NCBI GenBank assembly: GCA_947184155.2
Contig: CAMXCT020000805.1
Location: 1-64,000, forward strand
Source: Cladocopium goreaui
Lineage: Eukaryota; Sar; Dinophyceae; Suessiales; Symbiodiniaceae
DNA: 64,000 nucleotides
Reading direction: 5' to 3'
Shown in pieces: positions 15,577-35,280 of the stretch. Each line of letters opens with the position of its first letter. The first letter of the stretch is position 1. The translations under genes were made by a program, and so were the position numbers. The notes below the pieces were generated by a model. It had not been told where the DNA came from, ran no database searches, and was given only the letters and a program-made list of their open reading frames with translations.

Positions 15577-18174
15577 GATTTTTTTTTCCTCCGGTTTGGC
15601 CGATTCGCACTAGGCACGGTCCTTACAATAGCGTAAGCGGTGAAAAGCATTTAGAAAAAGGACTCGTGTGGTCCAAAAACGTGGGCAAATCATCACATCA
15701 ACACAAACAAAAAACCAAACAAAAAACGCAACCAAAACGACCCGCAAATCCCCCAGCCAGATTTGCGTTTCGCCATAAAGCAAACAGCGAAGCAACAAAG
15801 AACGGGGCCGGGCCCAAACAAGAACCAAACCAAACAACTTGGGATTTGCCTTGAATACAGTGACCTAAGCCACTGTATTGTCATCAAAAACATGCAAACT
15901 AATTAAGTGCGGCAGAGCGAAAAATTAGTACACGATCACCCAGATTCTAATCATCCATACAACCGTGACTGTCACTCCAGCTCTCTGAAAGGTAGGCAGA
16001 GCAGGAATAGCTGACATTACAGCTCGTATCAGTTGCCATTCTCAATGTCAAAGTTGGTCCTATGATGATGAGTGAAGTTGGAGTCCAATCTCTGTAGTAA
16101 GATACTGCCGCAGTGGTGATGTGACTCAATACCCCCCTCAAGGGGGGTAGGGATTGACAGCCTGTAGGTCATGCAGGACAATAACTGTAATTCATCCCAG
16201 ATGCTGTCATATCGTAGGAAGCCAAGAGGACCTGAAACGGTGCCAATGGTGAAAGATCTCCGCAGATAAAAAGGATCCTCTCCGTAAGGTCATTGCAGAT
16301 GAATAGAATACACTCGTGCAGAGGGAAGGCTTAAGCAAAGAAAGATTGCTACTCAGCGACCTGTACACAATTGCGCCGCTCGCACATGGCAATCGAGCTC
16401 AAGCCACAAACTTGAAGAGGTGGCTAGGTTTGCTGTACCAGCACCAGATTGACTAGCAGGATTCACAAGGTGTCATCGTCCCAGCAAAAACTGCTGCAAG
16501 TCAGATGTTCCAGAGGTTCGCAGTGCATCTCACATAGGGCCACTCTCCCCCTAGAGTGAGCCATGAGCAGAATCACGACGTCCCATCAGCGCACCGATCC
16601 ATGTTGGCAGGCTTTGCTGCACTAGGGCGCTCCAGACTGAACAGCAGGAAGCACCACTGGACAGCGCCAGTAGTGCTCACTGCAGTGCAGCCTGGTCCAT
16701 GGCTCTACCGGGGATCTACCGCCCCTCCCGGAGAAATCGCAGAAACAAAACAGAGCGAGAAGGGCCCTCCCCAGACAGCCAACGAAAAAGCCACATGAAT
16801 CAAACAGCCCAACACCGCAAAAAGACATAAAAGAGGTAAAACGGAGAGGAGGGGACGGTGACAGGAATCTGCCCCACCGCGAACGAATTCAGAGTAACTA
16901 GAGATAAGACCAATGTAGTGAAGGTGAAATGACAGAGCAATGATGTAGAGCGGTAACCTCAGTATCCAGGCAACAGGTAAACCAGAAGACACAACAACCA
17001 CCAAAGAGAACCCTGCCATCATGGGGGAAAGCAAATCACAAAAGGGGGGAGAGGCCAAAACAAAACACACACAACGACACCGGCCACACAGAAGGAGCGA
17101 GGAGAGGAGCCAGGAGGCAGCAGAGGACAGAGGGAGAGGGACACACCCGCACCAGAAGGGGTACAAACGTGCCTTAGCGGAGTTCAAAAAAGGGGCCAAG
17201 GATCATACTATGATGAATACCTCAGTGAGGGTGCACACAGCACTCCAACAACACAGGAAACATGGTGTAGAGGGAACGAGCCCCACACAGGGCCAAAGGC
17301 CTTTAGTGCCATGAGACACAATGAAGAGGGGAAATCAATGCACAACAATCACTCCAAGCACAGAGGCAAGGCAACCAGGCCGTCGCCGGAAGCAACGATA
17401 CCCAGAGGGAGGGACCAGTAAAACCTGGACCAAGGCGCCAAGGAGGAACATCCGAGGGGGAGTGAGGGTCACGTCAGGCAGGGAACAGTAACCACAAACC
17501 GAAAAGGACAGAAAAAGGCACCAACACCTAATGTAGCTCTGCGGATGGCAAAACCTAAGGATGAGTCAGCGAATTCAAGTGCCTTGGTTGGTGGAAGGGG
17601 TGGGGGAGTGGGTGGCTAATCAAGACTACATCTGGGGACAACAACAGCATCTTCACCCATCGATGATTGTCAGGCAAAGACTGCGAGAAAGCGAGTGCGT
17701 GCACTAGGCTTCATGGCAGAGGCAACCTTAGGACAAGCTAAGCTCTCGACGGGACAGCACATTCAGAAAGCGGGTATTAACGAAGCCATGCGGCCCGATC
17801 TGTTATGCCTAAGCTGGCACTCGCACACAAAGCCAACTGTGGCTCCCAACTGATGGAGAGATCTGGGTTAGTTGGAGCCAGGCATGTGTCGCATGATGAG
17901 CCTAACAATTATAAATGGGGAAACTGTGTCTCCTGCTGCATACCAGTGCACCTGTCACGTCTTTGGACAGACACACTGGGTATGAGCAGTACACTTAAGT
18001 AGATGTGACAATTGAACCAATTAGACACGTAAGTCATCTTCCACCACCGTGATTGATGAAACAAAAGCCAACCAATGGGTGAAAACCCAGAGTGAAACAG
18101 AAAAAGATAAGGGGAGGGGGGAGAGGGGGTGGACACACGAAGGAAAGTGTGATACTGGGGGGTTGAGCTGGGGA
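15577..18174 (-). other. Element A 3' region, no supported gene, A9 tail at its end
   Basis: About 2.6 kb downstream of the polyprotein stop. The A9 run is at 15579-15587. Positions about 15,680-15,740 and 16,700-17,500 are pyrimidine-rich on the minus strand, which creates hydrophobic-looking ORFs that I do not accept. A 20-bp palindrome lies at 16130-16149. No equivalents of the two small proteins found after polyprotein B are visible here. Confidence 0.4.
16130..16149. repeat. 20-bp near-perfect palindrome
   Basis: TACCCCCCTCAAGGGGGGTA: 9-bp arms around CA. It does not share the T(A/G)C loop of the dispersed hairpins. Function unknown. Confidence 0.5.
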
Positions 18175-21100
18175 TCATGTCATACCTCTCGTGAAATGTT
18201 CCAGATGGTGTTTTTTGTCTGCTGTAATGGTGTCATACCATTCATTGGTGAGCCCAAATGAAACTGGGTTCACTGCTTGCTGGGCAGTAGCACGCTGATG
18301 AAGCGCTCTGAGCGCCCTTCGATGTTCATCCAGATCTTCCGGAGGGACCCTCCGGCGGACTCGCCTGTCTGGGAAGTTTCGTTCCCGCAGGTTGGTTTGC
18401 AAGGCATGTTCCGCTATATAGACTGCTGGTTGCTGGAATAAAACTCGCTCCGCAAATCTGTCGAGATGGACTGTCCACTCAGCAAACATGTGGCTGTGTG
18501 ACAGTTGCTTCCTGAGTCGCGCCTCTGTTTGATGAAGGCTCCCATTCATATGCCACAATAGTAAAAGACTGTAGTTGGAAGGCCAGTCAAGTGGGCACAG
18601 TGTGGCTGTTTCTTTCCATTTTTCAGGGGTAAGCCCTTCTGGAGAGGGAATAATCACTTCAAGAGTAGTACGATTCGATCCAAGGGGTTGGAGACCTCGC
18701 AGCATACATGGTTCAACGAGCCCTGTGGTGTAGCCATTGATGAGCTCCTGGAAGCTTCCAGCCATTTGAAAGTCTTCATCCAACCCCCGGTGAAAACCAG
18801 GCAAATTTTTAGCAACAAATTTAACTGCTTGGAGCAGCTGCTTTTCTCCTTCCACGGGAGTCTCGTCATAGGAACGTTTCGGGCACGTGATGTTGATTTC
18901 TTGAGGTTTCTGTGCATTCTCAGGAGCATTCTCGAGGAGTTTGGGAGCAATTTTACTGGCCCAACTAGCCGGAAACCATGCCAAGAGGGCAGAGGCGCCA
19001 CTCGTAAGGTCCACTAACCCAGTAGTGCGCCGATGCGGTCGATCTGTGACTAGGACTTTCACAGGGCCACTCGGCGCTCGACTCCGATTCACTTCAGAGC
19101 TCTCGCGGGCTGAGCCAATGAGTTCAGACAGGATGGGCCGAAACCAGTAAGTGGCATACAAAAGGCATTCAGTTTCTGGAGTCACCATGGATTCAGCCAA
19201 TCTCATCAACGAGCTCATCGCCTGGGCGAGCTTCTCTGCCAATCGAATTGTGAGAGCCCTAGCTGTTTGATTAAGGACATCCTCCACCTTGGCACCTTGC
19301 CCGCGCAACCACAGTTCACCGGCCACACTCAGCAAGACGCGCGCAAACTTTTCTTGGATGGCAATCAAGGACAACGTCAGTCTCGCCTGGAGCCATAGCG
19401 GCGGGAGAACGCCAAGGTTTTCTGGTATGCAGAATGGGTTTCCGTCAGGTTGGATATTGTCAATTAACATTGCTAGCTTATCAGCTGCGCTCAAGATCTC
19501 GTCCTCAGAGGGATCTTCGGCTGCTTCAGGTATGGGTGGACACCATGAGATGGTAGGGTCTTCTGGATCACTTTCTCCATCGGTAGAGGCTGCTTCTTCA
19601 TCCGAGGATGGGTCACTCACTGTGTCTCTTGCACCCTCCGGGCTTGCAAGTTTCATAGTGCCTGGATCAAATTGGCGATCTAGTGTGGCCAAAAGCTCAG
19701 GTTGCAACCGATGGGCATCAAAGTAATGGATACCAGGGATTACCACAAGTTGTCGATCCTGTATACCAGCATGAAAGAAAACCTTGTGACCTCTGTGTCG
19801 ATGAACGAGGGCTGGGGACCCATTGTAAGCTGCACACAGCCAGAGGGGAGATCTGTAACCATCCGCGGCGTAACCATATAGGTACTCACGATCAATTGAG
19901 CAGGGGAAAAATCCGCTGGTCGTCAGCACATGGTCACGTGTGCGGGACTCTAGCGCTGCGAGGACATTAGGGGGAAGCCGTAGCCTGTCTCTGCATGCCA
20001 CTACCAGCCGATATCGTCTCCACGCTCGTGTGCCATTGGTGGTCACTATCATGGCAATAGCAAGGGGCGGTTTATCTTGGGGAGTAAAGGGCACCGATAA
20101 TCCCCAGTCCAGTATGGCACATCTGTCGCTGGGGTAGTTTGTAGGGCCATGGTACTGAATGTCACGGGCTTTCAACGTGAAGTATCCGTAATGGTAAACC
20201 CCTATTGTCTGGGCCATTCCAATCATGCCTGCCATGTCAAGAGGCGAGACAATATAGGTATGGTCGATGGCTCTTGTCAGCGCTACAGTTGCCCTTCCAT
20301 AGCAGTCCTCGCGCTCGTCTGCTGTTGAATCTCTCCGTCCTCCACTAAGAAAGCCTACCCCTGTTTGAACAATGACAGCAATGCGAGCTGTCGCTCCTGC
20401 AGCAGAGGAGGTGGTGGAAACTCGCAGCCCGCCATACCACTCGGTCTGAAAGCCATGTTGGAGTAGCAAATTATGTACAGCCGTACGGTTGCATAAGACA
20501 AGCAGCTGCGAGGTCGCTCCCTGTTGCAAGTTACGATAATAATTCTTCAGGTAGGTACAGAAGGCAACCACATCCTCAACTGCAGACCTGAGATCCTTAG
20601 GGGCTTTCCACAATACTGTGCGGAAGCCTCCAATGGCTACAGTGGACTCATGTGGCACGAAATGGCCAATGTAGATATGGTTGGACTCATGGAGGACTAA
20701 CTCCGGATATCGAACTGCAACAATGGCTTGGTAGGTCAGCATGGAAACTCGTGAGCTGTTAGGGAGAATGATGCCCCATCGATGAGGACCACAGAGTCCA
20801 GCTGCTTCAAGGGTCGTGGTGCACGCAGGTACCCCAAACTCCTCTGGTGCTGTGGCAATCAGCAAGACTGCGAGCACCGCTGCAATGAGGCTGCTGTGTG
20901 CATCCAGCTGGCACGAAATTCGGCAGTGGAACACCCGCCTTAGGGCGACAGGCAGCTCGTAATCTTGCGGAGTGGATGTCCATGGGCCACTGTGCGGCTT
21001 GTTTGCAAGCCTCAGCAGACTGAAGAGCTCCGACTCCGGATCTTGGCTCGCATCAGGCCACAGCTGAGCTACGAGGGCTGCCATTCGTGCTGGTGGAAAA

Positions 21101-24100
21101 TAGTCGCCGGACTTATCAAGTGCTCGGAGCCCCAACGGCCGTTGCAACAGTTTACGTCGATTGACAGCCGCTGCTCGGCCTTTGGATAGCCCTCCTGGAG
21201 TTTGCCTGTGGTCTCCAATGAAGACAGTCAGCATTGGCTGTTGTATGGCAGCAAGAGCTGCAATCTCATGGTAGTTGCCATACTGTTGACTTTCGTCCAT
21301 AAAGGCAAGCCAGGTGCGAGAAATCCAATGGCCAAAAGAGGAGTAGCGCATCGCCATTTCCGCCGTAGCTGAGCCACCTGTTGCGATGAGTATATTCTTA
21401 TGTGAGATGATTCTATTACGGTCACTACATCGGACGTCAATTTTGGAGGCGTACGCCTCTCCTTTGCCCTCCTCCATGCGTCCAATTAGCCTGCCGAAGT
21501 TCTTGATTGTGGGGGGCGCAAGATCACTCACTTGATCCGCTAGTGCTTTGGCAGCTACATTCTCTTTAGTGTAGACGATTGCAACAAAGTCATTCAGTTC
21601 GCAGCTTAGGGCAATGAGCAGGACCGCAAGGGACCGCGTTTTGCCAGCACCAAAAACCCCTGCAATACATAAGTCAGATCTTCCAGTCATAATGGCCAAC
21701 AAGAGTGCAATTGAGACTGTCAGGACATGTCCATCACCGTGTGCTGCTAGAGGAAGGAGATATTCACGATAGTAACTGTCATGGGCCCCATCCATCGAGA
21801 TCGCAGCTGGTGTCAAAAATCGGCTCAGGATTCTGACTAACGCATCAGTCAGTTGCGTTTTGCGCTCGCTAGCCATACGGCGAACAGGTATATGCGGCTG
21901 CACGATGCCCATTGCCAGTGGTAGGCGCGACTGGTTAGCTTGTGCAAACACTAAGAGTTCATGGCGGCTGCGTGTGTCTCCCAGAAAGGCCAACTCTTCC
22001 CAAACAACGGCCATGGACGGGTGGTCTTCAATGGGTTTCAGCCAATCCTGTGCAGGATCAAAATAACTCATTGTTCTAAGATGCTGATCCAAAAGTCGCC
22101 CACAAAAGGTCCGAGCAATAGGCAGAGAGACAATAACAAGCTCCAGCATCTTTGGGGCAATGCGCTTGAGCGCTCTTTGAACAGGGTTTTTGCTAGTTCC
22201 GCTCGACATCACCTTCTCATGTACCAATGCTATGACACAACGCTGCTGATTGTCTGGCAACTGGAATATACCCAGTAGGGCTCTGCCTGCCATCACGTTC
22301 GCTTCCAAGTTGCCCAGGTTCCCAGCTTCACAGAGAGCACGCGGCGACAGCGCTGGAACATCGGAAGGTGCACTAAATAGCAGGAGTGGGGCACCATCAG
22401 TATGTAGGTGGATGACATGAAATCCGGCATACGCCTCATATTGATAGGTAACCTGTAACCGTGTTCCAGTCTGTCCTCGCTTCTTCTGCTGAGCAAGTTC
22501 TACACTGACCCAAGGCTGTAGATGTTGGAGCTGCCGTCCCGCATGATAGGCGTCTAATTGCGGAAGCACCATGTCCAGGAGGAAGATGAGGGTGCGCAGG
22601 GAAAAGCCTCGCAGGAATTCCGCCAGTAAGTTGCGAACTAGCAATCCTCCCTCATCATGGGACCCTCCCGGTGTGGGAATCATCGCAATCAGGGCCGCTT
22701 GCAGTTCAGCTTCCGTTTCAGGCTGGCCATCCCGGATATCCCTTCCGTCAATGGGCACTGTGTGCAGTTCAGTGTTCCCTTCACCAGCTGCTACTAACAG
22801 AGAACTTAGAGTTGTCTTGAGATGTTCAGGAAGGTCAAAGCTAACCCATGAAAGTACACGCAGCAGACCCTCGCAACGTACCCCATGTGGAATGACTTGA
22901 GGGGTAGTGATTTGTAGTCTTTGGACTTCATGAACCCCTTCGTCAAGATCAATGAAGAGCAAGTGGCCATAGGAGTGTTTAGCACGTCCACTCCATGTGG
23001 GGTGCCCTTCTATCAGGACAATCTGATAGTTGAATTCTGTCAGAGAGTCAGGTTTCCACACACAAAGCCGGTCCTCCAGGCAGTGCACCAGTGTGACTGT
23101 GCGTTCGCCCGTGGCAAGTCTCATCATCTCTGGTGGCGTCGCAATCGCAGCAACTTTGGTGAGGCCAGGGAACACAGCAAACGCACTCAGGATCTCATGG
23201 ACAGCAAGGCCCGTATAGGACCCTGCCGAAAAACCGTGCACGTTGACATCCCTGAAACCGCTTGCTGCCGCTGTGGTGACTAACTGTGGAAAGCATGACT
23301 TCAGAAATAGATGTTTGCCTTGCGGATGGTAGCAACGAAAGATTTGCATAATTGCTGTTGTCCAGGTCGGGTGTGGTGGCCTGGCATGGGCTGGCCGGAT
23401 ATTCGCAGCCTCAATTAGGCGAATCGCTCGCGTGAGCAGCAGTTGTTGATCAGCGAACTGTCCAGGGAGAAAATCTCGCCAAGCTGTCCATCCTTCTGCC
23501 GTGGAGAGTAGCTGATAGATCACATATTCATGCACAGTTTTGGTGAGGCCCAACTGGGTGATATGTTCTTCCCAGTCATCTGTCATCGCAAGCGATGGGC
23601 CATACACCTTGGTTTGCGCAAGATTTTGCAGAAAAATATCATATTCATGCTCGCCACTAAGTAGGCCACCCCCTAGTCCACTGCAATGCACTTCAAGGGG
23701 TCGGTCTTGCATCGGGGCGTCATCTTGCCAGACTTCAGCGAGGGAAAAGACCCAGGAGGCCCACTCTGCAGAGCCTGTGAGGGCTACGGGCAGCGCATCT
23801 GCGGGTTGGCCCCCACTGTAGTGTTGTTTGGACACTTCCCCAATATCTATGGCCTGCTCATTGACGGTGACTTCCCACTTAGTCATCTCTCTGAAGGGTA
23901 GCGGAAGACCAAACGTGAGGGGAGCTGCCTGCTGCAGCGATGTACATGAAGGTTCAGATTGTTCCTTCCGGTGCCACAGTCCACACAGCAATGTGAGTTG
24001 AGCTTGGGAGAGAGGAACAGGAGGCACTTTAGCATGCAGTCGCAGACCAACCACTGGAAGGAAATTGGGATGCAACCATTGGGGCTTCCATTCTTGTGTC

Positions 24101-24627
24101 CCAAATAGAGCCGCAGCCAGCGGCAACCAGCCAAATTGGGCCAGCTCAGCGAGACTGCTGGGCATTCTTTTCTTGGCAGTACTGCCAAACCCATGCAGAA
24201 TCACAGGCCGCATGTAGTGTGGCTCAATTGTCATGGCTTGGTACATCTTGTCTCCCGGTAGTACTCGTACGCTGACTTCACCCGGCAGCAGGCTAAGGGT
24301 CGGAAGGGGTCCTTGCTCATAGGCAGGCCGAGCCCATTTGTGGAAGTTGGGTTGTCTACCTTGGTAGCCATCAAGGATTCTCCGTAGATGACCGTGGCGC
24401 GGCCAGACTCCAGAGGCTGGGACCGGAAAAGTGACTAATCCAGACCACTGGCCCAACACACTCCACGCATGGCACCAATCTGCAGTAACCCGGGTGGACG
24501 TGCCAAGCAGAGGAGAGCCAAGTAATCCACTAGCAACTGCTTGCTCAACGTCCGCAGGTGGATATGTAGTAGCAAGGTAGGCTTCGACATGTCTATGATA
24601 GGCACTGTAATGTCGTGAGCTATTTCG
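18175..24627 (-). CDS. Polyprotein A, C-terminal part: alpha/beta-hydrolase, Upf1-type SF1 helicase, long tail
   Basis: Open from 24627 (in-frame stop at 24628-24630). I start there because similarity to polyprotein B continues upstream of the first GTG (24459); residue numbers count from 24459. An alpha/beta-hydrolase-like domain has a nucleophile elbow GFSAG (S411), an acid in LEDRLCVW (D463) and a candidate His in KHSYGH (495 or 499). A superfamily 1 helicase follows: Walker A GVFGAGKT (934-941), DESQ (1055-1058), motif III IGDHRQ (1081-1086), and VGFL then YGRATVALTRA (to ~1397) matching Upf1-family motifs V-VI. The last ~670 residues are unrecognised, with an acidic Asp/Ser/Glu stretch near the middle. 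The combination with the DxD region encoded just upstream is unusual. The frame change at about 24,530-24,627 is absent from copy B, so A is probably damaged. Confidence 0.75.
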   Translation of the reverse strand, partial: RNSSRHYSAYHRHVEAYLATTYPPADVEQAVASGLLGSPLLGTSTRVTADWCHAWSVLGQWSGLVTFPVPASGVWPRHGHLRRILDGYQGRQPNFHKWARPAYEQGPLPTLSLLPGEVSVRVLPGDKMYQAMTIEPHYMRPVILHGFGSTAKKRMPSSLAELAQFGWLPLAAALFGTQEWKPQWLHPNFLPVVGLRLHAKVPPVPLSQAQLTLLCGLWHRKEQSEPSCTSLQQAAPLTFGLPLPFREMTKWEVTVNEQAIDIGEVSKQHYSGGQPADALPVALTGSAEWASWVFSLAEVWQDDAPMQDRPLEVHCSGLGGGLLSGEHEYDIFLQNLAQTKVYGPSLAMTDDWEEHITQLGLTKTVHEYVIYQLLSTAEGWTAWRDFLPGQFADQQLLLTRAIRLIEAANIRPAHARPPHPTWTTAIMQIFRCYHPQGKHLFLKSCFPQLVTTAAASGFRDVNVHGFSAGSYTGLAVHEILSAFAVFPGLTKVAAIATPPEMMRLATGERTVTLVHCLEDRLCVWKPDSLTEFNYQIVLIEGHPTWSGRAKHSYGHLLFIDLDEGVHEVQRLQITTPQVIPHGVRCEGLLRVLSWVSFDLPEHLKTTLSSLLVAAGEGNTELHTVPIDGRDIRDGQPETEAELQAALIAMIPTPGGSHDEGGLLVRNLLAEFLRGFSLRTLIFLLDMVLPQLDAYHAGRQLQHLQPWVSVELAQQKKRGQTGTRLQVTYQYEAYAGFHVIHLHTDGAPLLLFSAPSDVPALSPRALCEAGNLGNLEANVMAGRALLGIFQLPDNQQRCVIALVHEKVMSSGTSKNPVQRALKRIAPKMLELVIVSLPIARTFCGRLLDQHLRTMSYFDPAQDWLKPIEDHPSMAVVWEELAFLGDTRSRHELLVFAQANQSRLPLAMGIVQPHIPVRRMASERKTQLTDALVRILSRFLTPAAISMDGAHDSYYREYLLPLAAHGDGHVLTVSIALLLAIMTGRSDLCIAGVFGAGKTRSLAVLLIALSCELNDFVAIVYTKENVAAKALADQVSDLAPPTIKNFGRLIGRMEEGKGEAYASKIDVRCSDRNRIISHKNILIATGGSATAEMAMRYSSFGHWISRTWLAFMDESQQYGNYHEIAALAAIQQPMLTVFIGDHRQTPGGLSKGRAAAVNRRKLLQRPLGLRALDKSGDYFPPARMAALVAQLWPDASQDPESELFSLLRLANKPHSGPWTSTPQDYELPVALRRVFHCRISCQLDAHSSLIAAVLAVLLIATAPEEFGVPACTTTLEAAGLCGPHRWGIILPNSSRVSMLTYQAIVAVRYPELVLHESNHIYIGHFVPHESTVAIGGFRTVLWKAPKDLRSAVEDVVAFCTYLKNYYRNLQQGATSQLLVLCNRTAVHNLLLQHGFQTEWYGGLRVSTTSSAAGATARIAVIVQTGVGFLSGGRRDSTADEREDCYGRATVALTRAIDHTYIVSPLDMAGMIGMAQTIGVYHYGYFTLKARDIQYHGPTNYPSDRCAILDWGLSVPFTPQDKPPLAIAMIVTTNGTRAWRRYRLVVACRDRLRLPPNVLAALESRTRDHVLTTSGFFPCSIDREYLYGYAADGYRSPLWLCAAYNGSPALVHRHRGHKVFFHAGIQDRQLVVIPGIHYFDAHRLQPELLATLDRQFDPGTMKLASPEGARDTVSDPSSDEEAASTDGESDPEDPTISWCPPIPEAAEDPSEDEILSAADKLAMLIDNIQPDGNPFCIPENLGVLPPLWLQARLTLSLIAIQEKFARVLLSVAGELWLRGQGAKVEDVLNQTARALTIRLAEKLAQAMSSLMRLAESMVTPETECLLYATYWFRPILSELIGSARESSEVNRSRAPSGPVKVLVTDRPHRRTTGLVDLTSGASALLAWFPASWASKIAPKLLENAPENAQKPQEINITCPKRSYDETPVEGEKQLLQAVKFVAKNLPGFHRGLDEDFQMAGSFQELINGYTTGLVEPCMLRGLQPLGSNRTTLEVIIPSPEGLTPEKWKETATLCPLDWPSNYSLLLLWHMNGSLHQTEARLRKQLSHSHMFAEWTVHLDRFAERVLFQQPAVYIAEHALQTNLRERNFPDRRVRRRVPPEDLDEHRRALRALHQRATAQQAVNPVSFGLTNEWYDTITADKKHHLEHFTRGMT

Positions 24628-25748
24628 TCAGGATCCGTGTCCGAGTCCTCCAAGGCTGTGACAGGTACAGGGCTCTCATGACCCGAAGCTAATACAATGA
24701 CCAGACCCGCATTGATTTCAGTGAATGCCTCACTCACAAGGATGACTCCTTTGGGCCTACACGCACTGGCAGTTTCATCCACGTCTGATTTGTCCTTCCG
24801 GGTAGGTTTAGTTGACCCAGCCGGGGAAGAGTCAGTGCTGCTAGACGTCGCCCGCCGAGACATGCGGGGACTCGGGTCTGGTGACCCACCATAGTCAACT
24901 TCATCTGCCAGATCGGCACCATAGGTAAGTGGCGGAGCTCGTAGCGGGTCAGCTGTTCGGACAGCAATATGGTCAGCACTATGTGATCTGGACAGCTTCG
25001 ATGGTGGGCCAGGTTGCTGCATATCCCTGCCCGTGTCCACAGAGCGCGCACGTTTGTGCGATGATGCAATGGGACTTGGCAGTTTGCTTTTGGCAGCTTT
25101 GCTTGGCGTAGCTGGGAGGGTTGGATCAGTGCTCGCTAGCCAAAGTTCTCGTATCTCAAAGAGGGTCACAGGCACACAATCGCTGTCAATCAGTGCAAAG
25201 TTGATGGTCGGAAAGAGGAATACACAAGCATCAAGGATGTACGTCCCAGCCCATGTCGGGTGTACCTTGTGAAGACCCGTGTCAGCCGAAATGTGGACAA
25301 AGACAACTGTGGTGAGTTCACCATATGGACCGACATATCGTAGCCGTTCTTTCCACCAAGCAGCGACCATTGGCCAATGGCTGAGTCCAGGCACAGACTT
25401 GACCTTGTCTGATTGCAGATCCCGATTGTCCGTCACCAGATATACCGTGTGGTAGGGCAGAAACGCTGAGCTCTGACTAACCAACCATCGGTACAACTTG
25501 TGCCAATCCGGTCCAGGTAAGGCTTCGCTCCCGTCGACCGTGGCAATTTCATAGTCATGCCGATCCGGTGCAGCTGTCTTCTTATGGGGGTCTCCAAATC
25601 GCCAGTGCTGCTCAATCGATACATTCAGCCCGTATTCAGTCGAAATGCTCTTGTGCTGTTCGATTGCGTAGAGCAAGTCAAAGAAGCTGATATTTGGGTT
25701 CTTTTCATACCAAGACTTCGTAACCTGTTCTCTAGAGAGCAGAGACAT
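24435..25748 (-). CDS. Polyprotein A, N-terminal part: DxD glycosyltransferase-like region
   Basis: N-terminal segment of polyprotein A, starting at the ATG at 25748, just after a pyrimidine tract ending in CTACAG (AG at 25780-25781). Residues ~75-210 parallel polyprotein B: TVYLVTDNR, ADTGLHKVHPTWAG and NFALIDSDCVP (DSD at 189-191). A DxD at the end of a hydrophobic strand is typical of GT-A nucleotide-sugar transferases, but I cannot name a family and treat this as a candidate. Residues ~205-380 are Ser/Pro-rich and probably disordered. From about residue 390 the frame no longer matches copy B, whose equivalent (AYLATT, then PP.ADVEQAV) is read in the overlapping frame of 18175-24627. One indel at about 24,590-24,630 would join the two. 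Confidence 0.6.
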   Translation of the reverse strand: MSLLSREQVTKSWYEKNPNISFFDLLYAIEQHKSISTEYGLNVSIEQHWRFGDPHKKTAAPDRHDYEIATVDGSEALPGPDWHKLYRWLVSQSSAFLPYHTVYLVTDNRDLQSDKVKSVPGLSHWPMVAAWWKERLRYVGPYGELTTVVFVHISADTGLHKVHPTWAGTYILDACVFLFPTINFALIDSDCVPVTLFEIRELWLASTDPTLPATPSKAAKSKLPSPIASSHKRARSVDTGRDMQQPGPPSKLSRSHSADHIAVRTADPLRAPPLTYGADLADEVDYGGSPDPSPRMSRRATSSSTDSSPAGSTKPTRKDKSDVDETASACRPKGVILVSEAFTEINAGLVIVLASGHESPVPVTALEDSDTDPDEIAHDITVPIIDMSKPTLLLHIHLRTLSKQLLVDYLALLCLARPPGLLQIGAMRGVCWASGLD

Positions 25749-25814
25749 CACTCTATGAATTCCTGGGCAACTGATTTGGCTGTAGAAAAGAAGAGCGGGG
25801 GAGGGAGGGAGGTG

Positions 25815-25851
25815 TTGAGAATCCTGACACGTCCTTGGTCAGAAGACTCAA
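25815..25851 (-). ncRNA. Two-helix hairpin, copy 1
   Basis: Plus-strand view: outer stem TTGAG/CTCAA, internal loop AATC/AAGA, inner stem CTGAC/GTCAG, terminal loop ACGTCCTTG. A further GTG/CAC pairing may extend it. A pyrimidine tract and AG follow towards the polyprotein A start. Confidence 0.6.
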
Positions 25852-26006
25852 GCACACCAAATGGAAAAAACAACAGAAAAACCGACAGGGAGAAACAAAG
25901 AGAAAGACAAACAAAGCAGGCAACAGAAAGAAAGGGCCAACAGCACAACACACAACCAAACCAGACAAACGAAACAGAAAAGGGGGGGGAGAGGGGGGGG
26001 CGAGTG

Positions 26007-26043
26007 TTGAAAAACCTGGCACGTCTTTGGCCAGGCAGTTCAA
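26007..26043 (-). ncRNA. Two-helix hairpin, copy 2
   Basis: Outer stem TTGAA/TTCAA, inner stem CCTGGC/GCCAGG, terminal loop ACGTCTTTG. The outer-stem G/C pair of copy 1 is replaced by A/T, keeping pairing. Confidence 0.6.
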
Positions 26044-26176
26044 GCACCCAGAGCTAAAATTGAAAGATCAAATCAAATACCCAGGACACTAAGACTTAGG
26101 AGCAATGGCTAAACTAGGCAGCGCACACGTAGTGAGCGAAAGAGGTGAATGAGGGGGAGGAAGCAGGAAGAGGAAG

Positions 26177-26212
26177 CTGGAAGCCCTGACAGTCTTTAGT
26201 CAGAGAATCCAG
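26177..26212 (-). ncRNA. Two-helix hairpin, copy 3
   Basis: Outer stem CTGGA/TCCAG, internal loop AGCC/AGAA, inner stem CTGAC/GTCAG, terminal loop AGTCTTTA (8 nt). Confidence 0.6.
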
Positions 26213-26261
26213 GCACGAGAAAGAGACAAGAAAAGAAAGGGGGAGGAGGGAAAGGGAGGTG

Positions 26262-26298
26262 CTGGTAACCCTGGCACGTCTTTGGCCAGAGAAACCAG
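26262..26298 (-). ncRNA. Two-helix hairpin, copy 4
   Basis: Outer stem CTGGT/ACCAG (last pair changed A/T to T/A relative to copy 3), internal loop AACC/AGAA, inner stem CTGGC/GCCAG, loop ACGTCTTTG. Confidence 0.6.
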
Positions 26299-26744
26299 GC
26301 GTCAGATGGAAGGGAGGGAGAAGCAGGATGAAGTGAAATGAGCAATGATGGATGCTATCGTTAAATGTGGTCCCTATGCACGAAAGATCAATATGTACTT
26401 TGTTGAATGGAGAAAAAGCGGTAGCAATACCCTTCACCCAATATCCGGGAAGTTGGCTGTTTCAATCCCTTAATGTGGTTAGGAGGAGCTGTATGTCCCT
26501 TTCCTGGAACTGAGCTAAGGGCAAGACTGGCTACGACTGTCTCTTGAGCCGATGGGATCGCAGGGAGCAGTATCTCTTTGTGACAGAGCACACAGTACTG
26601 GTGCATTGCAAACATCATGGTTCAAATGAAACAAAAATTCTTATGCGTACGTTCTTTCGTGTGTCTTAAGATAACAAGCAAGCCAGAGTTCCTTTTTGCT
26701 GATGCCCGCATCCTACTGGGAAAATGGTCATCTGGAGCACGCAA

Positions 26745-27863
26745 TTAGTCAACTTGGTGGAGGAATGTTTCTTCCTGGTTGTGCTCAGGGGGTATCTGCA
26801 ACTCAGGGCGTAGTTGTACTGGTAAAGACAGGCCATCGAGTATTCTGCGCCATCTAAATGTGGTGAAATTAGTCTGTCGAGACTGTTTTTCGATTATGTG
26901 TTGATATTTCCACACTATTTGTTTGAGGATAGCGGTGGCCCTATCTGTCAGAGCAGTGAATTTGATTCGCACCTGAGAAAGTTGCTCACTTCTCACCACG
27001 TCGGAGGGGCTACTGGCACGCTGTAAAATGTCAATGACTGTGTCTTCAGTGCTCTGCAAAGCAGCAGCTTGTACAGCGTTGAAAACTTCTTTACGGGCAG
27101 GGTAACCATACCATTCCAGGGAGTGGCAAAGCACCGAGGCAATCGTAATCTCCTGCCACGGGTCCGCTTGTGCGTCTAGGAGCAGCTGGACATTAGTCCT
27201 GTGTCGATGGAGGACAGCAAGGAAAAGGGGTGGGAGCGCTCCTTTCACGGGTATCACCGAGGCACCAGCTTCAAGCAAAATTTGTACGTGCTGTGAGCTG
27301 CCCAACTCAACTGCTAACTCCAACATGGTGGTAGGTTTTGTTTTGGGCGGAATGATATTGGGGTCAGCATGGGCTTGTAGCAGTAGGTAAGTTAGTGTGG
27401 CTCCATGTCGAGGAAAACAGTGGCCAGCAGTAGGCTGGTAAGCGTATGGATCAGCAGAGTGGTCTCGAAGGATAGCAGAAGCTACTAATGTACTAATATG
27501 CCCTTCCTCCGTTGTCATGTCCATAAGGCCTACACCCTTACCAAGAAGATAGCTTACATCAATCACATCCTTGTGACAAATGGCAGTGAGAAGGTCTCGG
27601 TATTGCTGTGCTGACGGGACTTGTAACGACTGTACTATATAGCAGAACGTTGTCTCATTTGTATCTGTGTCGAACTGAACGGCCCTCAAAGGCAATTGGA
27701 TTGCTGACGAGCTGGCTGCATACAGGACCACTTGGAAAGGTGAGTCTAACCTGAGCACCTTAGCCGTCTGTTTAATAATATCCCATCCGAGGGTTGTCCG
27801 TTCCACGACGTCCATCATCAGGGTGGTTTCACCACGGATTCCATGGCAGACACGGAGTCGCAT
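26745..27863 (-). CDS. Ubiquitin-like plus ankyrin-repeat protein
   Basis: I chose the ATG at 27863 (MRLRVCHGIRG) although the frame is open to 27953, because a structured hairpin and a TTATTTCCAG acceptor lie between. The first ~60 residues (MRLRV, ETTLMMDVVE, TAKVLRLDSPFQVVLY) look like a ubiquitin-like beta-grasp head, a combination often seen ahead of ankyrin repeats in dinoflagellate proteins. At about 170-250 there are ankyrin-type repeats: LTYLLLQAHADPN, MLELAVELGSSQHVQILLEAGA and LFLAVLHRHRTNVQLLLDAQADP. The last ~100 residues are unassigned. It sits between the ORF-X relative and polyprotein A on the same strand, and probably mediates protein binding in the cytosol or nucleus. No equivalent is seen in element B, so it may be a cargo gene. 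Confidence 0.65.
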   Translation of the reverse strand: MRLRVCHGIRGETTLMMDVVERTTLGWDIIKQTAKVLRLDSPFQVVLYAASSSAIQLPLRAVQFDTDTNETTFCYIVQSLQVPSAQQYRDLLTAICHKDVIDVSYLLGKGVGLMDMTTEEGHISTLVASAILRDHSADPYAYQPTAGHCFPRHGATLTYLLLQAHADPNIIPPKTKPTTMLELAVELGSSQHVQILLEAGASVIPVKGALPPLFLAVLHRHRTNVQLLLDAQADPWQEITIASVLCHSLEWYGYPARKEVFNAVQAAALQSTEDTVIDILQRASSPSDVVRSEQLSQVRIKFTALTDRATAILKQIVWKYQHIIEKQSRQTNFTTFRWRRILDGLSLPVQLRPELQIPPEHNQEETFLHQVD

Positions 27864-27888
27864 ACTTACCCCTGGAAATAAGTAATCA

Positions 27889-27924
27889 GAGGCAACCCTG
27901 ACAGTCCTTAGCCAGAGGGGCCTC
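27889..27924 (-). ncRNA. Two-helix hairpin, copy 5
   Basis: Outer stem GAGGC/GCCTC, internal loop AACC/AGGG, inner stem CTGAC/GCCAG (one pair is G-U in minus-strand RNA), loop AGTCCTTA. It lies immediately upstream of the acceptor and ATG of the ankyrin gene. Confidence 0.6.
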
Positions 27925-27953
27925 GCACTTATATTTGCAACCACGAAATTCAT

Positions 27954-28411
27954 AGATGCCTAGGCAGGATACAGAGGGGTGTATAAGGAACTGTAAAAGG
28001 ACTAGTAACAAATCAGACCATCTAAATTTGAGCCGATATTGCTTAGCAGATCACACGAGAAGAGTTCGCAAGGGCTTGCAAGCAAATACAACGAAAAAAT
28101 AGTAGCCAGTCAGAAGAAAACGGCATGTGCTGTATAGCATATCTAGGATCCCTTAGGTCTAAAGATCGATCTAGTTGGTATGCTTTTATTTGAGCTGAAA
28201 ATTCTGCGGGCCTTCTATCGAGCAGCGTGGCAAGGGGTCACATGCAAGAAACTCTTCTACTCGACTGCCAGAAATCTGGTAGCAGATATAGCAAGTATCG
28301 CACTTACCATCTTTTTCTGTCCTGCATCCTCAGCGTGAGGAAAGAGCCACAGTCTTCGCTGCAGTTCCTTCGGACTGTAGACAGCATGCAGATGTCAAAG
28401 GTCTATGTCAC
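27954..28411. other. Gene-free interval
   Basis: 458 bp between the ankyrin gene and the ORF-X relative. I see no ORF, repeat or structure worth naming. Confidence 0.4.
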
Positions 28412-29575
28412 TCAGGTTTGACTTCCCTCTGTAGCTGGATCTGTGCACGATTCTGTCGGAGCAGCGGAAACAGCTTGAACCAAATCTTCCTCTTTGGCCG
28501 TGGCTTGTTCATGCTCGATCTGCACCAAGTTGCCCACGACTTCTTCCATTTGGGTGGCTGCCTCCATTACGAAGGTTAATAGAGTTCGTGCATACGCCAG
28601 CTGTTTAGCGGCCCGGGCCCGGCCCTCTGTTGCAGGTCCTAGCGGCGGTACCTCACCATGCCGCCACATTGTGACTTTGCTTGTTGTATGAGTTGGCATG
28701 GAGGGTGATTGCGGCTCCGATCGACCAGCAAAGGTCGCATTGAGTTTCTGCAAGTCGCGTTCACTGTAATTCCCAGTCGGGTCGAGCTGTTGGGTACTTG
28801 TCTGTCCCGTGGGGTCTGTGTACTTCCTCTTGCCATGCAAGTTCTCCTCTCTTCGCGGCATAGACTTTATGGCACTTTTGTGTTCAAAGCCAGTCTTGAA
28901 AGTTTCGTGAGCTGCTGAACTACAGCGGGATTCTCTGTTCAGGGCAATAATTTTGTCCATCACCTTGCCTGAGCTATTGGTCATTTCTGTGAAGGGCCAG
29001 CAGGGCGTGCGATTCGCCAGGATATTGTGTTCATGCATCCGGTCAACATAGAAATGATTCAATTTCTCATTGTGTCGATGGTTCGTGATGACAGCAAATC
29101 TTCTGGGACTGACCCAAATCCATAAATCCTCCTGAAAGGACTCTGTGGCATAGAAGGGCCAGATCTGCCGGCCTCCCATTTCCACAAAACAAAAATTGGT
29201 GTAGACGTCATCACTGGCTTCGGTATCTATATGACAAAAGTCATGTGACAGCTTGGCGGAACTGGACCCTGGATAGGCCCAGTCCACTGGGCTCTTCATG
29301 TCATCATTGAGAATAATGTTCCAACATTCGCCATTGATGTACATTCTATATTCGTAGAAGGACCATGCATGGAGCTGCTTGGCGTGCTCATAGCAGCCTT
29401 GCTGCCGATAGACCTGGATGCCATCGTACTCCGCAAGGTAGGACTCTTTGTATTCAAGTCGCTGGTGTTCACTGTGAGCTTCAGTATCATTACTGCCACC
29501 AGCGGGGCCCGCTTGGTCAGGCCCAGTCAGTGGGCCTGCTTTTAGCGTGACCTTATCACCGATCCACTGCGCCAT
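28412..29575 (-). CDS. ORF-X relative of element A (unknown function)
   Basis: I chose the ATG at 29575 (MAQWIGDKVTL) although the frame is open to 29698, because the upstream codons come from a pyrimidine-rich tract. About 387 residues. The middle (NIILNDDMKSPVDWAYPG, FCFVEMGGRQIWPFYATE, WIWVSPRRFAVITNHRH) has the same aromatic-rich layout as the middle of ORF-X in element B, and both end in a disordered stretch followed by a predicted coiled helix (here AKQLAYARTLLTFVMEAATQMEEVV). The same position, upstream of the polyprotein, supports a shared family, but direct identity is low and should be tested. No enzyme motif recognised. A two-helix hairpin and ~200 nt of pyrimidine tract precede it. 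Confidence 0.5.
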   Translation of the reverse strand: MAQWIGDKVTLKAGPLTGPDQAGPAGGSNDTEAHSEHQRLEYKESYLAEYDGIQVYRQQGCYEHAKQLHAWSFYEYRMYINGECWNIILNDDMKSPVDWAYPGSSSAKLSHDFCHIDTEASDDVYTNFCFVEMGGRQIWPFYATESFQEDLWIWVSPRRFAVITNHRHNEKLNHFYVDRMHEHNILANRTPCWPFTEMTNSSGKVMDKIIALNRESRCSSAAHETFKTGFEHKSAIKSMPRREENLHGKRKYTDPTGQTSTQQLDPTGNYSERDLQKLNATFAGRSEPQSPSMPTHTTSKVTMWRHGEVPPLGPATEGRARAAKQLAYARTLLTFVMEAATQMEEVVGNLVQIEHEQATAKEEDLVQAVSAAPTESCTDPATEGSQT

Positions 29576-29599
29576 GACTGCCCACCAGGGTTTACAAGG

Positions 29600-29793
29600 G
29601 TATGGCAGAAGCAGGAACAACGTGCAGGAAAAGAGAGGAGAGGAAACAATCACAGACGAGTGAGGGGGACGGACCAGAAGGTAAACACGAGGGGCCAAAA
29701 GTTACGGACAGCAGCAGAGGTGGCAATAGGGGGCAGCCAAAGAGAGGAGGAGACTACGGCAAAAGAGAGGGAAGGCAGGATAGAGAGAGGGTA
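29600..29793 (-). promoter_or_regulatory. Long pyrimidine tract upstream of the ORF-X relative
   Basis: On the minus strand ~190 nt of mostly C/T (CTCTCTCTATCC, CCTTCCCTCTC, CTCCTCCTCTC) connect the hairpin at 29794 to the ATG at 29575. It resembles an extended polypyrimidine tract for splicing. Confidence 0.4.
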
Positions 29794-29822
29794 CTCCCCT
29801 GACACGTCTTTGGTCAGAGGAG
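29794..29822 (-). ncRNA. Two-helix hairpin, copy 6
   Basis: Outer stem CTCC/GGAG, single C/A mismatch, inner stem CTGAC/GTCAG, loop ACGTCTTTG. Followed on the gene strand by the pyrimidine tract. Confidence 0.6.
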
Positions 29823-30068
29823 TGGGAGCCCTGTACATGGGGCGATGGTTTGAGCCACAGGTATGCGATAGGGTATACTAAGAATGATGCCGTATCTCTC
29901 CCTGTCGACATGTACCAGATTCACGTGTACACATGAAGCATATGCTGAACATGCACGCTGCCTTGGCGGAGACACGACTCTCTTTTTGCCAGAATTTTGA
30001 ATTGGCAAGATCACACCTAAGGATGATAAGCATAGTCACATAGTCCTTGCTTCGCGTCACTTGATTCA

Positions 30069-30536
30069 TCAAAAAACAGTTAAACAGTGAGTAAGTTCAG
30101 TGTAACTGTGTTGTACATAAGCTGTGGCGATGTACATTGTAGATGAATCCGTGAGGCCTATTCCTTCACGGAACAGCTGTTCAAGGAGCCCAGCATCAAG
30201 GCAATCTACCGTCTCTTCCTTGATCGAAAAAACGCAAGGGGTCCTATGCATGAGTCCATTGGATATGAGGAGATAGTCTTGAATTTGTTGCTCGTCGATT
30301 CGGATTACTGCGTGTGTAGCAGTGTGTGCAATACAAGTCTCCGCATCAGGCATTCGTAGGTGCAAAATTAGCAGTTCGATGTTGTCTCCTATCACTGCAG
30401 ACGGAGGTCTTGCTTCGAGCGAGGTTGCTCCGATAACTCCATCCACAACGTCTAAGTGCTTCATTTCGTCACCATGGCAATTCCGTATGCGCTGTCTGAC
30501 TAGGTCTCCGTGTCTAGCGTAATTGCTTGGAAACAC
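30069..30536 (-). CDS. Small hypothetical protein, possibly ankyrin-related
   Basis: A 155-residue frame starting at GTG (first ATG at 30464). I do not recognise a family. The C-terminal third (LDAGLLEQLFREGIGLTDSS) resembles a short stretch of the neighbouring ankyrin protein (IDVSYLLGKGVGLMDMTTEE), so it may be a decayed or one-exon relative. It lies in the 5' part of element A on the same strand as its neighbours. A real gene is plausible but unproven. Confidence 0.35.
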   Translation of the reverse strand: MFPSNYARHGDLVRQRIRNCHGDEMKHLDVVDGVIGATSLEARPPSAVIGDNIELLILHLRMPDAETCIAHTATHAVIRIDEQQIQDYLLISNGLMHRTPCVFSIKEETVDCLDAGLLEQLFREGIGLTDSSTMYIATAYVQHSYTELTHCLTVF

Positions 30537-30716
30537 CTAGTGATCTCAACCAATAACTACAGAGTGGTATTGTTGGATGTGTGTTGTGACGTATCAACTC
30601 TTGAGCAAACGATGGCACGCGTAGGTAATGAGTGGCACATAAACCATGTTGTTGCACCGATCTGTTATGCGGCAATTCTAAAATTTTCTAAAATCCACAG
30701 CAATTTCACTGTTTTG

Positions 30717-31462
30717 TTATAGGAGGACGACCTCCGGTGCACCCAACGCTCTGTCAGGACTTCGAGTGGCCGCAGTGGGCGGGTCCTGCACAAGAAGTCT
30801 AAATCTTATGTCGGGAGCCATCATTCTGGCTACTTCGACTAGGAGCGTGCTAGGTTGTAGTCTTTGCACAGTTGAATTTGTTCCAGCTGCTCTAGTGGTC
30901 CAGATGCGGAGGTTGGGTGGCAACCCTATCCGTAATAGGAGAAATGCCACTTCCACCACTGTATCAACCGTTTGCTGCATGGTCCTGCGGTCCAAGAAAC
31001 CGCCCAAGGTCGCAGTGATGTGTATTGTCTGGATAATCAGCCGGAATGGTCGGGCATCGATTGGCACTGGTGCAAATCCCGCCTGATCGGTCATGCCTCC
31101 ATCAGCAGCTGGAATTAAGTATAGGTGATTGACCCACACACCTCGTGTAGACGGGCGACTAAAACCTGCCACTTGGACTATGTCCTCGTATGATGCTGCT
31201 AGTGCTGTCAAAGATGCTGTGTGATGCTCTGTCCATCCAATTCAACTTGTTGGAGGTCAGCTTCCAATGTGTTATAGATCAATTGCAGCCCATGTGCTTC
31301 TTCTGGAAAGAAGGTGACACATCCACTCTGCACCAGCCGTACTGTGCGCCTGAGGTCTCGCACAGCCACCATGAGTTCCTGTGCTGCTTCCAAGCTATAT
31401 AAGATCATCTTTACTGGCATAGAGAAACGGTGTTCTTCACCGCGGAGTCGTACAAAGTCCAT
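30717..31462 (-). pseudogene. Split hypothetical gene of element A (two frames)
   Basis: The ATG at 31462 opens an 84-residue frame (rich in Leu/Glu, probably helical: LYSLEAAQELMVAVRDLRRT) that stops at 31208. An overlapping frame starting at TTG (31211) continues for 164 residues to 30717, with alternating hydrophobic strands (FRLIIQTIHITATLGGF, VVEVAFLLLRIGLPP). The 4-nt overlap and lack of an ATG for the second half suggest one gene with a frameshift or an unrecognised intron. No domain recognised. It is the most 5' gene of element A and is preceded ~100 nt upstream by a two-helix hairpin. Confidence 0.4.
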
Positions 31463-32276
31463 GGCAGTACGGGTAGAGAGAGTGGGGGCCCACTACATAA
31501 AGATTGCTATTTGCAAGTATAAGAGAGTGGCAATTAAAACGGTTATTAGTAATGTTGTGGTCAGTCAGTTGCAATCCCGACACGTCTTTGGTCGGAAAGA
31601 CAACGTGACCGTCAAGGTTACCCTATTGAATGTCAGGCATGTTGGGAATTGGGTCATATCAGCCATGTCTCTATGATGACTGTCTCGCTAGGGTATTTCA
31701 GTAAGTGTGATGGGGAAGGTTAATTTTTATCCCATTGTCGCTGAAACACGCTCACGTCATCTTTGTACACCTTTGAATTAGTGAAGAGCCCAGGGGCACC
31801 GTGCAATTTACCATTGTGTGCGAGTGAGCTAGATAACAAGTACAGACAAAAGACATGCAGGTTAGGGACCATCCTAAGCCCTTCGCGAAAATTCCATGAA
31901 ATTGCCTGTATCAGACTGTCTTCTACCTTGCGGGTAGGTGGGCAGGGGATATTGCGTATTAGGCATGCTAGCTTAGGGGGAGAAAAACCTGTGAGCAGAA
32001 ATAGCGGCATGTTCACACTGCAGTCATCGCCAGCAATGGCAAGATGAAGATGAATGTGCCCCTACTAGATGAGCATGTGGCTCAATTCCCGTAGAAGTTA
32101 CTTGCAAGACATGCGAGAATCACCACCGGAAAAGCAGACCAATGAAAACCTCTTTTGATTAACTGTCGATCAGCTTCACCGGTCTTCTGCTAAGTCATGT
32201 AGGCCTCATAGGTCATTGAAGATGGTTGCATAAGCTTCACTGAGGGCATACCAATTTTGCTGTAGTCGGTAAAGTG
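31463..32276 (-). other. Element A 5' region
   Basis: About 800 bp with the hairpin at 31568-31604. A frame at 31720-32066 with no usable start (contains LHLAIAGDDCSV and NMPLFLLTGF) could be an exon remnant; I cannot support it as a gene. Confidence 0.35.
31568..31604 (-). ncRNA. Two-helix hairpin, copy 7
   Basis: Outer stem GTTG/CAAC, internal loop CAATC/AAAGA, inner stem CCGAC/GTCGG, where an A/T pair of other copies is replaced by C/G, and loop ACGTCTTTG. Confidence 0.6.
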
Positions 32277-32289
32277 ACAAACAAGTGAC

Positions 32290-32769
32290 GTGCAACGTGC
32301 AGTAGCGGCCATTCAGCATTTCCCATCCCCCGTTCCCCCTGATAGCCCCTTCATGCGAACACTAGGGACACCGGCTGCCCTAAAAGCCCCACCGCAGACG
32401 GACACCCTGGCGCAAAGAGCTCTAGAAGAATGGGAACGCACTGTGTGTGATAAGGCAGTGGCAATCCTCGCCGAGATCCAAGCTGGCCGACCGACTATAA
32501 TCCATAAAGATGGGGGTGAAATGCTTATTGCCATTGTCCTTGATCGGCCACTGGCGGAAGCGAAAGCACTAGTGGATGACCCTGCGGCATTCGCTTGCGA
32601 AATGACGCGAATCCTGCATGACAAACAAACCCACCCGCTTATCGCCCAAATGATGAAACCAGCGGCAAGCAGTAATCCACCCTCCGCCGCTGCAGCCAGT
32701 GGTGCTAGTAGCAGTAGAGAGCCTCGCGCTGCCTCACACGAGCAGTTTCAAGTGAGCCACATGAAGTGA
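32290..32769 (+). pseudogene. Polyprotein tail, element C fragment
   Basis: Nearly identical to the last ~160 residues of the tail ORF at 37643-39652 (QRAVAAIQHFPSPVPPD through the Ala/Ser-rich end). The rest of the polyprotein is missing upstream, so this is a truncated remnant and its first Met is not a true start. In element B the same peptide is the C-terminus of the unknown tail that follows the helicase. Confidence 0.7.
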
Positions 32770-32837
32770 CGCAGAGACCCCAAATTTATCATCCGTGCAT
32801 TTAGCGCGTAACTTGCTTCAGGTTGAGCGGGGTTGTC

Positions 32838-32855
32838 ACCATGGGGTCTCATGGT
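32838..32855. repeat. TRC-loop hairpin, decayed
   Basis: Counterpart of 37542-37560; one base of the loop region is deleted (ACCATGGGGTCTCATGGT). Confidence 0.4.
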
Positions 32856-33083
32856 TGATGGCCACCTGCTACAATTGCCTATGCTGTCAGCATGTCGGAG
32901 CCAATCTGGGAAGGGAGGCGGTAGGGGGCGGATATCTCAATCCTGTTCTAGGTTTTTAATTTGTATTTGTTCATGTTGTGCTACCTTAATTGTTGCATCG
33001 TAGTTTAGTGCGATGTCAAAGTACATCAAGCCATGGCGCCCGTTGCTGTCTTGTTCAGGCAATCCAGTACCTGCATTGCTTGA

Positions 33084-33539: not shown

Positions 33540-33574
33540 CTGAGCCAGCTACCATGATCACCTGACCGCATCTA

Positions 33575-34054: not shown

Positions 34055-34079
34055 GCTTTTTTGCTTGCACCCCTCGGAG

Positions 34080-34345: not shown

Positions 34346-34448
34346 AATGTGACAAGGGATTTGGACTATGTATCGGTCCTCTTCCAGTTTACTTTCGCGG
34401 CCATTACAGCTTCGGCCCCTGCACGAGTCAATTAATTAATCTCATTTG

Positions 34449-34470
34449 CAACATGCTTGGAAACATGTTG
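34449..34470 (+). repeat. Stem-loop 40 nt before the element 3' end
   Basis: CAACATG and CATGTTG pair across an 8-nt loop. The element B equivalent (near 35,920) keeps 6 of the pairs. A terminal stem-loop followed by a short A-run is a usual recognition signal for LINE-type reverse transcription. Confidence 0.5.
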
Positions 34471-35272: not shown

Positions 35273-35280
35273 TTTGATGT

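Follow-up and report, generated by a model that had tools for sequence, protein, structure and literature searches.

In the first 64,000 nucleotides (nt) of contig CAMXCT020000805.1 from the dinoflagellate Cladocopium goreaui, hereafter the window, we observe eight copies of a short hairpin, all on the minus strand, which is also the strand of the surrounding genes. The hairpin very likely has a job in RNA, as its sequences change in ways that keep the fold, and seven of the eight copies lie approximately 22 to 510 nt upstream of the start of an open reading frame (ORF). To our knowledge, structured cis-acting mRNA elements with clear covariation have rarely been reported from protist nuclear genomes. 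If the role that we propose below is correct, the hairpin would provide a sequence handle on how the one-directional gene rows of dinoflagellates become separate mRNAs, its constant apex could be used directly to capture the protein that would recognize it, and the genes of the module in which it occurs would represent several genes under one signal, open to direct test.

Copies, structure and covariation of the hairpin

A sequence-only reading of this region had reported seven copies of the hairpin. All seven are found where that reading placed them, and the count was one too low, as direct scans reveal an eighth copy at 17939-17985 (core 17951-17970). When both strands of the 64-kb window were scanned with covariance model R1 with filters off, the eight copies scored 47.5-62.1 bits (E 2e-12 to 5e-17), values that are not independent of the copies because R1 was built from the same eight, while the next best match scored 9.0 bits (E 3.8). 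Independent of the model are the pairing tests given below and a scan for a 20-base core (up to 3 mismatches), which finds 6 matches where 0.01 is expected and misses the two short-loop copies. The copies are confined to 13.7 kb and share one orientation, rather than being spread over both strands and away from genes:

17939..17985, minus strand: eighth copy, approximately 190 nt past the end of ORF 18175-24627; 52.6 bits; outer stem CCAGT/ACTGG; fold z-score of -5.6 on the gene strand
25811..25857, minus strand: copy closest to gene A, whose ATG is at 25748; 61.4 bits; outer stem TTGAG/CTCAA
26003..26049, minus strand: copy upstream of gene A; 60.8 bits; outer stem TTGAA/TTCAA
26173..26218, minus strand: copy upstream of gene A, short-loop variant UAAAGACU; 53.8 bits; outer stem CTGGA/TCCAG
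26258..26304, minus strand: copy upstream of gene A; 62.1 bits; outer stem CTGGT/ACCAG
27885..27930, minus strand: short-loop variant, approximately 22 nt ahead of the gene B start at MRLRV; 47.5 bits; gene B frame open through the hairpin
29786..29832, minus strand: copy approximately 210 nt upstream of gene C; 47.7 bits; shifted outer stem, without internal loop
31564..31610, minus strand: copy approximately 100 nt upstream of the start of gene D; 58.4 bits; outer stem GTTGT/GCAAC with one U.G

From base to apex, the gene-strand consensus comprises a basal stem, a C bulge at column 6, an outer stem of 5 base pairs (bp) with variable sequence (columns 7-11 with 39-43), an internal loop of 2x2 (columns 12-13 by 37-38), an inner stem of 7 bp (14-20 with 30-36) and the apex itself. 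The inner stem had been put at about 5 bp, which the alignment corrects to 7 bp, and what had been described as a 4-nt-like internal loop corresponds to the 2x2 loop of the consensus and is absent from copy 29786-29832. Counted from the alignment, this loop is all pyrimidine in 6 of 8 copies. Within the inner stem, pair 14-36 forms in every copy, as C-G, U-A or G-U, and pair 15-35 is U.G in all copies but one, which has C-G. Six copies have the apex sequence CAAAGACGU (in one of these, CAAGGACGU) and the other two have UAAAGACU or UAAGGACU; the apex can be read as a hexaloop AARGAC that is closed by a C-G pair plus a bulged U in the six and by U.U in the two. Overall, the apex is kept and the base is variable, with 13 of the 47 columns in the hairpin alignment (A1) being invariant. 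In copy 17939-17985, pairing is uninterrupted over 14 bp.

Selection on an RNA structure, as the sequence-only reading had proposed, is supported by two-sided changes that keep pairing beyond what shuffles and slid registers give, by a G.U bias and by the fold z-scores of the gene strand. Over 8 rows and 15 pairs, 93.3% of cells are paired (shuffled mean of 70.4%), 11 of 15 pairs show two-sided changes (shuffled mean of 6.5) and the covariation score is 0.729 (shuffled mean of 0.241), with 0 of 500 shuffles reaching any of these values, though the tests are inflated by the relatedness of copies such as 26003 and 26258, which together with their flanks give a 72-bp match of 79% identity (blastn). 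Half of the non-pairing cells (4/8) come from the single copy at 29786-29832, and sliding the 3' arm by 1-3 columns lowers the covariation score to 0.05-0.24. The outer stems had been described as all different yet all pairing. They do form 37 of 40 pairs natively, against a mean of 21.4 over all 40320 assignments of the 3' arms, a single one of which reaches 37; the three pairs that fail all belong to copy 29786.

Across the 15 pairs, G.U occurs 15 times on the gene strand versus 3 times for A.C (11 versus 1 in the 12 core pairs), which comes close to the proposal that G-U intermediates are found only on the gene strand, save for the three A.C that remain. This bias argues for RNA, since nothing evident would produce it in a palindrome of double-stranded DNA. 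Fold z-scores range from -2.1 to -5.6 on the gene strand versus -1.2 to -3.5 on the other and are lower on the gene strand in all eight copies, and fold energies are lower on the gene strand in seven of eight, the exception being copy 29786. Judging from these patterns of base change and folding, the hairpin is probably an RNA-level element, whatever its function.

Genes around the hairpins and relatives of gene B

Every stop-to-stop ORF of at least 400 amino acids (aa) in the window, 13 in total, is on the minus strand. The hairpins accompany a one-directional row of four genes, which we designate D, C, B and A in 5' to 3' order on that strand, and each of the three gaps in this row contains at least one hairpin:

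30717..31462, minus strand: gene D; start at approximately 31462 read by eye from the three-frame translation, then continuing in another frame; ORF 30717-31241 without Pfam match
28412..29575, minus strand: gene C, conserved protein of unknown fold; first ATG at 29575; 61 hits (alignment A2)
26745..27863, minus strand: gene B, counted from the MRLRV start; ankyrin-repeat protein (PF12796, E 2.9e-6); first ATG of the ORF upstream at 27953
24435..25748, minus strand: gene A, first ORF (ORF 24435-25838, first ATG at 25748); no Pfam match; 39% identical to part of 43360-45882
18175..24627, minus strand: ORF of 2150 aa that overlaps gene A at its end; no Pfam match at E 0.001; related to the helicase-like ORF 39710-43624

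From hairpin to start, the distance is approximately 22 nt at B (MRLRV start), 100 nt at D and 210 nt at C, and it ranges from 62 to 510 nt for the four copies ahead of A. Six of the eight copies lie outside the long minus-strand ORFs of the module, one is reached by the open frame that extends upstream from the gene A ATG, and the gene B copy is in open frame; the seven copies other than that of gene B are either separated by stops from the frames of their genes or outside those frames. ORF 18175-24627 is probably the continuation of gene A, and it is 29% identical over 1152 aa to ORF 39710-43624. For gene C, a structure predicted on the basis of 18 sequences was of low confidence (mean pLDDT, the predicted local distance difference test score, of 39.6), and the frame change in gene D may reflect an intron or decay. 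By R1, the hairpin is absent from the reverse transcriptase element at 4309-9567 (RVT_2) and from the helicase-like locus at 39710-45882, with nothing further above 9 bits in the 64 kb. This latter locus and 18175-25838 are related two-ORF pairs with overlapping frames and 29% to 39% identity, and a protein search with ORF 39710-43624 returned 88 hits, each with as many as 801 members, and one of these hits (P0045) has domain PF03372. GC content in the window is 0.47-0.54, which together with the one-directional long ORFs and the type of start of the ankyrin protein fits a Symbiodinium-like dinoflagellate. Two local departures in composition lie next to the module: the gene strand is poor in A at 25865-25990, a single A being present in the 150 nt that follow the 26003 hairpin, and an AT skew of 0.33 on the plus strand at 16001-18000, hence a T-rich gene strand, adjoins it.

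The hairpin is also found upstream of other relatives of gene B. The query for this search began at the upstream ATG, such that the translated hairpin is contained in the first 30 residues of the query. At least 120 hits were returned (at least 7993 candidates scored), and among the matches listed, 99 are close relatives (P0150-P0248, E <=1.2e-27). The hairpin is read through upstream of an MRLRV-like start in 27 of these 99, 25 being recognized by pattern and two by eye (P0150 and P0199, the latter only from the apex on); such a search favours copies with the hairpin in open frame and gives no measure of the rate of hairpin loss. In P0180, which is 68% identical, the core WLKTVR is kept and the residues on either side are changed. 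In P0173, P0184 and P0248, the same nucleotides are read in another frame (KCEASLAKDCQGCL), which indicates that the nucleotides are kept and not one peptide. A conserved N-terminal peptide as the sole cause of the gene B hairpin is ruled out by these three relatives together with the positions of the other seven copies. Furthermore, P0180 and P0230 imply G-C at pair 8-42, which is A-U in the window, and when 11 proteins (7 distinct peptides) were chosen out of the 27, all 12 core pairs were possible by some codon choice in 10 of them, versus 3 of 400 random peptides drawn from the same set. As a side observation made by eye, the upstream residues of P0241 resemble the translation of approximately 34220-34350 (minus strand), as if another repeat had joined just upstream of the hairpin.

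Genes B and C are probably linked elsewhere too. If longest contigs of equal size are treated as one contig, seven are common to the 99 relatives of B and the 61 of C (sizes 16384, 40133, 49954, 69123, 189822, 191310 and 535833), against a mean of 0.11 at offsets up to 50. By the same measure, the 88 hits of the helicase-like ORF 39710-43624 have none in common with C and one with B. Gene C clusters have up to 353 members, and the cluster sizes suggest a multi-copy module.

Possible functions of the hairpin

The reading that we favour, tentatively and at somewhat less than even confidence, is that of a protein-bound leader hairpin that marks gene boundaries for the making of mRNA 5' ends. The eight copies would constitute one family of cis-acting RNA elements, residing mostly in the leaders of transcripts from a multi-copy, one-directional module. 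The constant apical part, comprising the inner stem and the AARGAC loop, would be the recognition part, whereas the outer stem would need only to be double-stranded, such that its sequence could drift with pairing kept. A putative protein would bind the apical part and mark the boundary, and the 5' end would then be made between the hairpin and the start codon, either by cleavage or by spliced-leader trans-splicing. The presence of a copy in each gap, near the next start, suggests a part in 5'-end making.

Several observations weigh against this reading. A spliced-leader outron element has an acceptor AG and a pyrimidine tract at a regular place downstream. On the favourable side, the mean pyrimidine fraction in the 60 nt downstream of the hairpins is 0.69, a value reached by 51 of 20000 random intergenic sets, but the bias exists upstream too (0.66, 454 of 20000 sets), and while five of the eight copies have downstream values of 0.67-0.87, those at 17939, 27885 and 31564 show no bias (0.53, 0.52 and 0.57). 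Owing to this upstream richness and these three non-rich copies, we do not claim a splice-acceptor layout. The first AG ends anywhere from 3 to 156 nt downstream of the hairpins, giving no fixed acceptor geometry, and the dinoflagellate spliced leader has no match in the window within 3 mismatches. Transcription of the hairpins is itself presumed from the sequence pattern, and the inflation of the shuffle tests by related copies has already been mentioned. At gene B, the hairpin is downstream of the first ATG of the ORF (27953), placing it within the open frame, where it could be coding; the 27 relatives that are predicted to be open through the hairpin are not decisive on this point, as ORF prediction favours such cases. 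Of the remaining 72 relatives, 43 begin at the MRLRV-like start and 24 are without such a start, both groups being silent on the hairpin, and five (P0212, P0218, P0220, P0221 and P0223) have approximately 13 residues upstream with no recognizable hairpin peptide, a mild negative. P0150, the sole exception among the 11 chosen proteins, has pair 20-30 broken. Finally, the copy at 17939 has no recognized gene downstream and could equally be a 3' element.

The main alternative, which we consider possible but rather unlikely, is that the hairpin remains in the mature 5' untranslated region and that a bound protein controls the translation or stability of the module mRNAs jointly. The same covariation and G.U evidence would fit such a role, as would the gene B hairpin, which ends approximately 22 nt before the MRLRV start, and the four copies ahead of gene A, which resemble a stacked regulatory site. 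However, the distance to the start varies from approximately 22 to 510 nt, and the copy after ORF 18175-24627 has no recognized start downstream.

It is unlikely that the hairpin instead signals 3'-end or intergenic processing for the gene before it, through cutting by a double-strand-specific nuclease. A copy is found in each gap of the row and after ORF 18175-24627, and a giant-virus precedent exists: in Mimivirus and Megavirus (PMC4402537), a hairpin that is unconserved in nucleotide sequence is cut by an RNase III-like enzyme and ends the transcript. The likeness to the window is that of hairpins located near gene ends and read as double-stranded RNA. Unlike those viral hairpins, the hairpins in the window are conserved, with a constant loop and inner stem, and most copies stand before starts. 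At A, B and C, moreover, less distance separates the nearest copy from the following start than from the stop of the previous long ORF, and copy 31564 has no recognized gene upstream on its strand.

Less probable still is a site of folded single-stranded DNA, analogous to integron attC, that would serve the mobility of the module or its genes. In attC sites, the basal sites are conserved and the centre is variable. Common to both are hairpins between the genes of a one-directional row and the keeping of structure over sequence, and a structure with free sequence in one stem, together with the linkage of B and C relatives elsewhere, would fit this explanation too. In contrast to attC, the window hairpin keeps its apex and varies its base, and the bias of G.U over A.C points to RNA rather than DNA; the four copies between B and A, furthermore, enclose no listed minus-strand ORF of at least 130 aa. 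Functionless dispersal of a short palindromic repeat, similar to a miniature inverted-repeat transposable element, is highly improbable, for although copies 26003 and 26258 appear to stem from a local duplication, the outer stems differ yet pair natively, and the copies occupy one strand only with nothing further above 9 bits in the window.

A wider extension of the favoured reading is that this is a putative mobile dinoflagellate module with its own RNA punctuation, in which an apex-recognized hairpin would mark each gene in a common transcript and a dedicated factor would release single mRNAs, as in an operon. We regard this extension as speculative and rather doubtful. Dinoflagellates do have one-directional gene clusters, but polycistronic expression in them appears to be rare (PMC11453091), which argues against operon-like punctuation. 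Among the papers listed on Perkinsus hairpins, dinoflagellate stem-loops and polycistronic transcripts, and RNA structure in Symbiodinium, none describes an operon-like hairpin punctuation signal in its title or the opening of its abstract.

Known families and other repeats

The motif had been put forward as one that was not recognized, and this holds against Rfam 15, which gives no match at gathering scores in the 64 kb. At E up to 5 in 25700-31700, which covers seven of the eight copies, the only Rfam hit is a chance one away from the hairpins (Yar_3, 16 bits), and ARAGORN finds no tRNA or tmRNA gene in the window. The selenocysteine insertion element, the iron-responsive element, boxB and small ribozymes were considered and set aside, with the Rfam search as the only test. 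In nematode operons, the Ur element is a stem-loop upstream of SL2 trans-splice sites. Set beside it by description only, the window hairpin is alike in being a stem-loop between genes and upstream of a putative acceptor region, and it differs in that the use of a spliced leader is known in nematodes and putative here. Amoebophrya introners are also short hairpin-forming repeats in a dinoflagellate; in these introners (PMC7789003), base pairing between the inverted repeats joins the ends of a single intron and direct repeats of 3-5 nt mark the exon borders, whereas the window hairpins have a constant loop and, except at gene B, lie between ORFs. Among the papers listed on dinoflagellate and Perkinsus hairpins, the spliced leader, palindromes and RNA structure in Symbiodinium, introners, polycistronic transcripts and mobile ankyrin or helicase genes, none describes the hairpin in its title or the opening of its abstract.

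No relative turned up in IMG/VR, which was scanned with ORF 18175-24627, with genes B and C and with the helicase-like alignment, the first ORF of gene A and gene D being outside these scans. The core pattern did match 21 stretches in IMG/VR, which we take as chance since they score 11.8-26.6 bits with R1 versus 47 for the weakest copy; 20 of the 21 fit the inner stem and loop only, one (L010) is full length at 16.2 bits, and a further row from L005 scores 9.9 bits. Longer hairpin patterns have no match in the prokaryote genome collection or in IMG/VR, phage records yield only 5 short matches (E 0.1 to 6), and PDB sequence searches with ORF 18175-24627 and with alignments A3 and A2 return nothing at their limits.

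The window contains several other repeats. A second hairpin family is formed by the palindrome CCCAAGGGTACCTTGGGTA, for which we observe eight matches within 3 mismatches versus 0.02 expected:

10979-10997, 12214-12232 and 14045-14063, plus strand: matches to CCCAAGGGTACCTTGGGTA
48633-48651, 49108-49126, 50014-50032, 51061-51079 and 51663-51681, minus strand: matches to CCCAAGGGTACCTTGGGTA

Its variants comprise one paired change from A-T to G-C, one unpaired change and three that are changed in the central GTAC. Long inverted repeats at 10675-15576 and 47094-51388, approximately 31.5 kb apart and 76-90% identical in pieces, have the hairpin module between them and are possibly the ends of a very large element. 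An additional inverted repeat of 2.3 kb (32277-34514 and 35858-38126, 90%) encloses a fragment (35279-35861) with 89% identity to a piece of the 2150-aa ORF (20735-21317). Finally, a 680-bp tandem duplication with 99% identity (57895-58575 and 58574-59251) is situated at the junction of ORFs 51877-58170 and 58747-63999.

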